A DNA stretch of 64,000 bases, from positions 62,288 through 126,287 of the forward strand of contig NZ_JABVED010000013.1 in the NCBI RefSeq assembly GCF_014323725.1, in the 5' to 3' direction. Source of the DNA: Actinokineospora xionganensis. GTDB lineage: Bacteria; Actinomycetota; Actinomycetes; Mycobacteriales; Pseudonocardiaceae. A program made the translations under genes and the position numbers. The notes under the pieces were generated by a model, which did not search any database, was not told the DNA's origin, and saw only the letters and a program-made list of their open reading frames with translations. How positions within the stretch are numbered: the stretch's first letter is position 1; every line of letters starts with the position of its first letter. This document shows positions 1,875 to 3,260 of the stretch, in pieces.

Positions 1875-2630
1875 GTGTCCCAGCCCCGCACCGCCATCGT
1901 CACCGGCGCAGCCCGAGGCATCGGCGCCGCTGTCGCCAAACGCCTCGCCCGTGACGGGTTCGCCGTCGCCGTGATCGACCTGAACGAGGCGAGCTGCGCG
2001 GACACCGTCGCGGCGATCGAGGCCGAGGGCGGCAAGGCCCTGGCCGTCGGCGCCGACGTCAGCGACTCCGCGCAGGTCGAGGCCGCCGTCACGAAGGTCG
2101 CCGAGGAGCTGGGCACGCCGACCGTGCTGGTCAACAACGCGGGCATCCTGCGCGACAACCTGCTGTTCAAGATGACCGACGACGACTGGGACCTGGTCAT
2201 GAACGTGCACCTGCGGGGGTCGTTCCTGATGACCCGCGCGGTCCAGAAGCACCAGACCGAGCAGAAGTACGGCCGGATCGTGAACCTGTCGAGCACGTCG
2301 GCACTGGGCAACCGCGGCCAGGCCAACTACGCCACCGCGAAAGCCGGTCTGCAGGGCTTCACCAAGACGCTGGCCATCGAGCTGGGCAAGTTCGGCGTCA
2401 CCGCCAACGCGATCGCCCCCGGGTTCATCGAGACCGAGATGACCGCGGCCACCGCCGAGCGGATGGGGGTCTCCTTCGAGGACTTCAAGAAGGGCGCGGC
2501 CTCGATGATCCCGGTCGGGCGCATCGGCCACCCGGACGACATCGCGGCCACCGCGTCGTTCCTGTGCAGCGAGGAAGCCGGGTTCGTCTCCGGCCAGGTC
2601 ATCTACGTCGCCGGCGGACCGAAGGACTGA
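1875..2630 (+). CDS. fabG: SDR-family 3-oxoacyl-ACP reductase / 3-hydroxyacyl-CoA dehydrogenase
   Basis: 251-residue short-chain dehydrogenase. The cofactor motif TGAARGIG is at residues 10-17, NNAG follows at about 87-90, and the catalytic Ser-Tyr-Lys triad is in NLSSTSALGNRGQANYATAK. FabG-type enzymes interconvert 3-oxoacyl and 3-hydroxyacyl thioesters. Given its place at the head of an operon with a MaoC hydratase and two acyl-CoA dehydrogenases, oxidation of a 3-hydroxyacyl-CoA is more likely than fatty-acid synthesis. GTG 1875 has a strong ribosome-binding site (GGAGGAG, about 1865). The stop codon lies at the left end of the large hairpin at 2629-2792. Confidence 0.88.
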   Translation: MSQPRTAIVTGAARGIGAAVAKRLARDGFAVAVIDLNEASCADTVAAIEAEGGKALAVGADVSDSAQVEAAVTKVAEELGTPTVLVNNAGILRDNLLFKMTDDDWDLVMNVHLRGSFLMTRAVQKHQTEQKYGRIVNLSSTSALGNRGQANYATAKAGLQGFTKTLAIELGKFGVTANAIAPGFIETEMTAATAERMGVSFEDFKKGAASMIPVGRIGHPDDIAATASFLCSEEAGFVSGQVIYVAGGPKD

Positions 2631-2792
2631 GAGTCCGTCCAGGGAGAGAGGTGCGTGAGAGTCGTGATCGAAACGGTTCCTGACGGTCCGGACGGATCGT
2701 CCTCATACCGGGAGTATTCGGGCGACCCGTCCGGGCCGTCAGGGGCCGATTCGGCGCGGTTCTCGCGCGCCTCGCTCCCTGGACGGACTCTC
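2629..2792. repeat. 164-bp imperfect inverted repeat forming one long hairpin over the maoC start
   Basis: Left arm 2629-2708 and right arm 2714-2792 are inverted copies with a 5-nt loop (CGGGA). The outer 18 bp are perfect (GAGAGTCCGTCCAGGGAG at 2629-2646 against 2775-2792). An inner block is 16/17 matched (CCTGACGGTCCGGACGG against the inverse at 2724-2740). By hand alignment most of the remaining differences are C-to-T or G-to-A changes that keep a G.U pair in the + strand RNA; about five positions are true mismatches and one base bulges. The element contains the Shine-Dalgarno AGGGAG and the GTG start (2655) of the downstream hydratase, and is translated through in frame. It is too long for an ordinary terminator. 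Confidence 0.9.
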
Positions 2793-3260
2793 CCGCACAC
2801 CTTCGACGGACTCGACTCACTGACGCGGGCCCAGGGCAAACACTTGGGCTACGGCGAGTGGCACGAGATCACCCAGGAGCAGGTCCAACAGTTCGCCGAC
2901 GCCACCGGCGACCACCAGTGGATCCACCTCGACACCGAGCGCGCGGCGAAGGGTCCCTTCGGCGGCACGGTGGCGCACGGCTACCTCACGCTGTCGCTGC
3001 TTCCCATGCTGGGCCGGGAGATCTACGACTTCCGCGGCTTCTCGATGGGCGTCAACTACGGGCTCAACAAGGTCCGGTTCCCCAGCGCGGTGCGGGTCGG
3101 CAAGCGGGTGCGCGCCGGCGCCGAGCTCAAGTCGGTCACCCCGGTCGCGATGGGCGTCCAGGCGGTCTTCGCCTACACCATCGAGATCGAGGGCGAAGCG
3201 AAGCCGGGCTGCGTCGCCGAGGCCGTCGTGCTGCTCGTCGCGGGAAAGGACACGACATGA
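2655..3260 (+). CDS. MaoC-family (R)-specific enoyl-CoA hydratase with hairpin-encoded N-terminus
   Basis: 201 residues. From about residue 49 (TFDGLDSLTRAQGKHLGYGE) it is a standard single hot-dog MaoC hydratase with the FADATGDHQWIH...GTVAHGYLT hydratase signature (catalytic Asp/His). It hydrates trans-2-enoyl-CoA to 3-hydroxyacyl-CoA. Family members normally start a few residues before the TFDGLD-like segment; here the first 48 residues are encoded by the 164-bp inverted repeat and read as Gly/Ser/Pro-rich filler (PDGPDGSSSYREYSGDPSGP). No ATG, GTG or TTG occurs between the hairpin and the domain, so the GTG at 2655, with AGGGAG 8 nt upstream, is the only plausible start. Stop overlaps the next start (ATGA). 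Confidence 0.85.
   Translation: MRVVIETVPDGPDGSSSYREYSGDPSGPSGADSARFSRASLPGRTLPHTFDGLDSLTRAQGKHLGYGEWHEITQEQVQQFADATGDHQWIHLDTERAAKGPFGGTVAHGYLTLSLLPMLGREIYDFRGFSMGVNYGLNKVRFPSAVRVGKRVRAGAELKSVTPVAMGVQAVFAYTIEIEGEAKPGCVAEAVVLLVAGKDTT

Follow-up and report, generated by a model that had tools for sequence, protein, structure and literature searches.

The hairpin that separates a fabG-like gene from a maoC gene in the window, a stretch of 64,000 nucleotides from Actinokineospora xionganensis (contig NZ_JABVED010000013.1, positions 62,288 to 126,287 of the forward strand), is best explained as a MITE of an actinobacterial family of ~165-bp palindromes, which would have inserted at the TGA stop of fabG and moved the start of maoC inside itself. 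We consider this reading rather likely, with appreciable room left to others. The palindromic element, both arms and tip, spans positions 2629–2792 on the + strand, as judged from its fold and from its relatives (L002 and others); measured against the family, its left end may lie at 2631, just past the TGA. It forms a single hairpin of 74 pairs closed by a 5-nt loop, and its RNA minimum free energy of -142.7 kcal/mol (z -14.36) was equalled by none of 200 dinucleotide-preserving shuffles, so that the hairpin described in an earlier note on this DNA is real. The outer 18 bp are exact, as had been claimed: the left outer stem (2629–2646, +) is the exact complement of the right outer stem (2775–2792, +). 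The tip, CCTCATACCGGGAGTATTCGGG (2701–2722, +), is the conserved motif of the family. Comparison of the two arms gave 61 Watson-Crick, 10 G.T, 1 A.C, 4 other and 2 gap columns, which bears out the statement that most arm differences keep G.U pairing. An intrinsic terminator (GC-rich stem and T run) was rejected, with none found at 2400–3000, and so was a known Rfam RNA: the scan of six loci against Rfam 15 gave no match at the gathering score and five matches up to an E of 1, four of which are eukaryotic miRNA models falling on hairpins.

The window hairpin is one copy of a set of dispersed, near-perfect palindromes of ~165 bp that share a conserved tip and differ in their outer stems. BLAST with the window hairpin led to a second copy in the same genome, and that copy led to further ones, among them four near-identical 168-bp copies (L012, L013, L014 and L016). 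The earlier note had proposed searching the source genome and its relatives for the hairpin. When this was done with a covariance model, built from 50 elements hand-picked and aligned out of 76 nonredundant ones (the 26 left out include all from L163–L201), at least 16 copies were found in the source genome and matches in 30 of the 61 genomes searched, the source genome included; a plain DNA search matched 14 of the 61, again including its own. G007 gave at least 61 matches (61 candidates scored) and G012 gave 57. Another copy in the source genome, L010 (C12:297471), has a left arm and tip with no matching right arm and is apparently truncated.

The distribution of the element across genomes is patchy. 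Covariance-model positives outside the host family are few and some of them lie near the threshold. Sampling the phylum evenly and scoring 15 candidates in each genome gave matches in 5 of 246 genomes: the source genome and four members of one genus. A pattern for the tip occurs in at least 119 stretches of genome contigs, and all 119 titles are actinobacterial by name. When 80 listed tip matches were folded, 55 gave at least 60 pairs, 6 gave 40–59, 11 gave fewer, and 8 lay too near the end of a piece; two Euzebyales pieces among the tip matches lack a clear hairpin. These data do not establish that the element extends beyond Streptomycetaceae and Pseudonocardiaceae. The window hairpin had no match in plasmids, nor had a Streptomyces core in phages. 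A literature search that did not extend to subscription papers or ISfinder returned no description of the palindrome family, and the words 'Streptomyces' and 'Actino' are absent from the main text of a review of prokaryotic MITEs (PMC10969869).

In the 50-element alignment the tip columns are invariant or nearly so, and 36 of the 40 consensus pairs show double-sided changes in at least one sequence. Covariation alone is no proof of selection, because template switching can rewrite one arm from the other. The mismatches also have a direction: when the tip defines which strand is read, G.T columns outnumber A.C columns by 517 to 146, and G.T is ahead in 64 of 69 elements (3 reverse, 2 ties). This count excludes 11 of the 80 folded pieces, whose arms were short or which had under 40 Watson-Crick columns. 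The outer stems alone give 163 against 44. The 76-element set gives 582 against 136, with G.T ahead in 70 of 76, and since this set was pre-chosen for at least 55 RNA pairs, the 69-element count is the fairer one. Choosing the strand by energy was dropped in favour of the tip motif, since an energy-based choice favours G.T by construction; both the G.T/A.C and the covariation counts come from copies that share ancestry and are not independent. Given this excess of G.T over A.C among the arm mismatches, read on the strand that the tip defines, the fold of one strand seems to be maintained, in line with the earlier hint that the RNA fold matters. Relative to the gene whose stop adjoins the element, 14 elements are sense-left, 12 sense-right and 7 both; genes thus adjoin either side about equally and host read-through favours neither strand. 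We infer that an RNA or single-stranded DNA form of the element's own matters.

Three observations concern the arrangement of core and ends. In L047 (G031:C1:3083388) one strand folds better and the other carries the tip, as if the tip had been inverted within the stem. Two copies in the source genome, L012 (C69:299796) and L015 (C12:181756), have near-identical cores and wholly different ~28-bp outer stems in both arms, a difference that looks as though both ends had been swapped together. Likewise, within a subfamily of G006 (L234–L239, L254–L265; 10 distinct copies compared) the core is nearly the same and the outer arms differ, often both together.

Sites that lack the element in relatives indicate where it inserts. 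At L014, L008 and L006 the close relative G014, of the same genus, has a single CTAG, where the source genome has an element with CTAG on both sides, and at L015 it has ATAA against CTAA and TTAG around the element. The G014 sites of L002 and L012, two of the six aligned, are not clean, which counts against the explanation; eight copies were queried there, and L007 matched as two halves ~1 kb apart and L016 by one half only. In other relatives the L015 site reads CTAG (G003, G011) or ATAG (G007), and in G007 the L006 site reads CTAA and the L007 site TTAG. One of these six further aligned sites, that of L008 in G007, has no such tetramer, again a point against.

The ends of the elements tend to coincide with stop codons. 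On 53 of 141 sides the element ends at the stop of a long frame with high GC3 (39 TAG, 10 TGA, 4 TAA), compared with 6, 0, 5, 2, 2 and 3 stops of 135–139 in control zones shifted 40–400 bp outward. In a tight window, with 11 of the 76 elements dropped as lying near a piece end, 33 of the 65 elements testable on both sides have at least one end at a stop codon; the other 32 have none at either end, which counts against the explanation. CTAG tetramers are generally scarce away from stop codons in GC-rich genomes, and elements that land within genes may also be lost, which would strengthen this distribution. A rough gene caller placed 1 of 78 copies inside a predicted gene. In plasmids, the best match to the Streptomyces core has no listed gene under it in 34 of 35 records not flagged as unannotated, in a gene table that is incomplete (one of the 35 records lists a single feature). 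The earlier note had likened the hairpin to the palindromes that invade genes in Rickettsia, and this likeness is not supported for the family, whose copies lie at stop codons and between genes.

At the window locus, the fabG-like short-chain dehydrogenase gene (1875–2630, +) lies upstream of maoC in the operon and ends in the TGA at 2628–2630 (+), at the end of the element and within the sequence C-TGA-G, the putative insertion target. In G014, which lacks the element, this junction is intact: window positions 1875–2634 and 2795–3260 are contiguous there, and maoC begins with GTG 2 nt past the fabG TGA. In all ten same-genus orthologues compared the maoC start codon is ATG (seven) or GTG (three), at the position where the window has CCG (2793–2795, +). 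None of the orthologues compared carries the element, so that distant operons with the hairpin sequence as ordinary coding DNA, which the earlier note had named as what would refute it, did not turn up. G005, G006, G009 and G011 gave no match at the threshold used, and in G015 a different gene follows fabG. The junctions of the window copy read TGA on the left and TCC on the right; as the right one is not a copied TGA, small changes would have followed insertion.

The maoC frame runs through the element. Read from GTG 2655 it extends over 2655–3260 (+) and encodes 201 aa, with the PF01575 match at residues 60–166, and a second in-frame GTG lies within the element at 2664–2666 (+). A possible Shine-Dalgarno sequence for GTG 2655, GGGAGAGAGG (2642–2651, +), lies inside the stem and is paired in the finished hairpin; a purine-rich stretch and GTG within the stem, with a frame open into maoC, are as previously described. 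The in-frame leader supplied by the element also exists, with 46 codons rather than the 48 first given, and is rich in Ser, Gly, Arg and Pro (9 S, 6 G, 5 R and 5 P of 46). That it is foreign to the MaoC family is supported by the ten orthologues, all of which start at the position where the window has CCG, and by PDB chain 2c2i (Rv0130), which aligns from query residue 48, just past the leader. The open frame itself is weak evidence, because among 76 family members any given frame of the six is uninterrupted in 33 to 55, and for that lack of specificity it was rejected as a sign of selection.

Our preferred reading is that the element entered the fabG TGA, directly before maoC, that the old maoC start later became CCG, and that initiation most likely shifted to GTG 2655 or GTG 2664 inside the element; the predicted product would be a complete MaoC enzyme with an added leader. 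Against this, the completed hairpin pairs every base of both GTGs. In folds of the nascent RNA, GTG 2655 is partly open until 2760 and GTG 2664 until 2750, and both are fully paired from 2770 on. The starts might then be reached by ribosomes finishing fabG, or before the right arm is transcribed. A second difficulty is that codons 2–18 of maoC (window 2796–2846) are unusually diverged from G014, with 17 of 51 nt differing against 36 of 411 in the next stretch.

This divergence also counts in favour of the strongest alternative, in which the same element is present, maoC starts at TTG 2844 (2844–2846, +), the hairpin is 5' untranslated sequence and translation has been lost from the first 17 ancestral codons. 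The TTG replaces CTG or CTC of all ten orthologues in the window's genome only and has AGGG (2833–2836) 7 nt upstream, and the Pfam match begins at residue 60. However, 9 of the 12 differing codons in the diverged stretch are synonymous, where random single changes would give 25%, a pattern typical of coding sequence, although part of this divergence predates the insertion; besides, the 2c2i alignment begins already at residue 48, every base of the TTG is paired in each of the two folds that include it, and TTG is not very rare, encoding 7.6% of leucines in the genes predicted in the window. We give a start at TTG 2844 a low probability and judge that maoC initiation probably moved into the hairpin. 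Quite improbable, in our view, is that maoC has been largely silenced by the same element and is poorly translated and starting to decay while paralogues cover its role: the start codon is lost, pairing in the completed hairpin covers the candidate starts and a second MaoC-type match exists in the genome (C45, 42% identity), but the frame is intact over 201 codons and 24 of the 30 differing codons past codon 18 are synonymous relative to G014. The suggestion that the hairpin is kept as a regulatory device throttling maoC relative to its operon partners draws on the full pairing of the start region once the right arm is made; given that no other orthologue compared has the hairpin and that family members adjoin genes in either orientation, it seems very improbable, and any damping of maoC would be a by-product with no designed switch. 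A protein-coding palindrome of the Rickettsia type (RPE), selected for in-frame insertion into genes, would fit the size, palindromy and in-frame leader seen here and can barely be credited when the open frames are unspecific and the copies so rarely lie in genes.

As to what moves the element, the hairpins look like MITEs mobilised in trans, since the outer stem of one Streptomyces subfamily equals the ends of an IS5-like transposon. A transposase-encoding element on NZ_CP108578.1 has two ends, CTAAGGGTTGTCCCGTAAATG and CTAAGGGCTGTCCCGTAACTG, that both match the outer arm of L119 (Streptomyces); its protein matches DDE_Tnp_1 and HTH_Tnp_4 and scores 125.4 against the NCBIfam IS5 model, below the cut-off of 140. 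This is the one complete case: the other two of the three plasmid transposase loci studied, L320 and L322, have no clear second end. On another Streptomyces plasmid, NZ_CP109428.1 (L321), 36 places match one 36-nt outer arm. Transposons with CTAA or CTAG ends occur in the same genus as the window (L324 in G014, L325 in G015), and IS ends around HTH_Tnp_4 matches were clear at 2 of 8 loci examined, out of 10 returned. An HTH_Tnp_4 transposase was found neither in the source genome nor in G006 or G007, despite the 61 element matches of the latter, and DUF4096 had no match in the source genome. The G006 subfamily's outer arms were not found away from hairpins (12 of 12 hits lie beside one), and a motif screen for paired IS-type ends across the collected loci gave no hits. 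A trans-acting IS5-type enzyme for the window's subfamily is plausible; such a DDE transposase would act on the outer ~20 bp, while the one-strand hairpin, as RNA or single-stranded DNA, might be needed in the element's own life cycle and so keep its G.T pairs. More tentatively, and with the expectation that it may well prove wrong, we propose that the core is a portable hairpin module carried on several unrelated types of IS ends. It would live on transposons as a hyperparasite: a shared factor would recognise its hairpin (RNA or single-stranded DNA), and each arm would serve to repair the other, carrying a newly captured end to both sides. This proposal is based on the same core with different 28-bp ends in one genome (L012 and L015), and on the one-strand fold and near-invariant tip kept from Streptomyces to Pseudonocardia.

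These data would add a widespread and apparently undescribed class of long palindromic mobile elements to the antibiotic-producing actinobacteria. Insertion tied to stop codons would be a low-damage niche, and the family provides many natural hairpins on which to test for selection on a single-strand fold. The window copy, in turn, offers a natural experiment in which a gene appears to have survived the loss of its start codon.

Among known systems, REP/RAYT elements share with the family an extragenic palindrome and a short tag at its foot, which in REPs is GTAG or CGTC. Unlike REPs, which are 20–40 bp long (PMC3733652), the present elements measure ~165 bp and have CTAG-type tetramers on both sides. 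RPEs are palindromes of ~150 bp, and the window copy extends a protein in frame as they do; however, RPEs are reported to be frequent in-frame insertions within genes (PMC10969869), while the actinobacterial family avoids genes (1 of 78 copies inside) and shows no preferential in-frame gene insertion. IS5-family transposons with CTAR-type targets are closer, in that the outer stems of one subfamily are transposon ends and two same-genus transposons have similar ends; the element differs from them in having no transposase, and its core and tip are absent from those transposons. RUP elements are short, dispersed and intergenic, with inverted repeats, target duplication and a fold in transcripts. 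The same description covers Correia, ERIC and the family reported here, which is set apart from all three by being, as a whole element, one near-perfect ~75-bp palindrome with a conserved tip and variable ends, by ending often at stop codons and by its actinobacterial hosts. How Correia and ERIC elements affect mRNA is covered in the MITE review (PMC10969869). An autonomous partner element with the same ends was found in one complete Streptomyces case and in none for the source genome, G006 and G007. The family is short (~165 bp), has no protein of its own and occurs in many dispersed copies (at least 16 in the source genome; 30 of 61 genomes); it has terminal inverted repeats, and its CTAG-type empty sites point to a target-site duplication with TA or CTAG as the duplicated unit. 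Judged by these copies, inverted repeats and target duplication, we class it as a kind of MITE, one that differs from known MITEs in its full palindromy, its conserved tip with exchangeable ends and its placement at stop codons.
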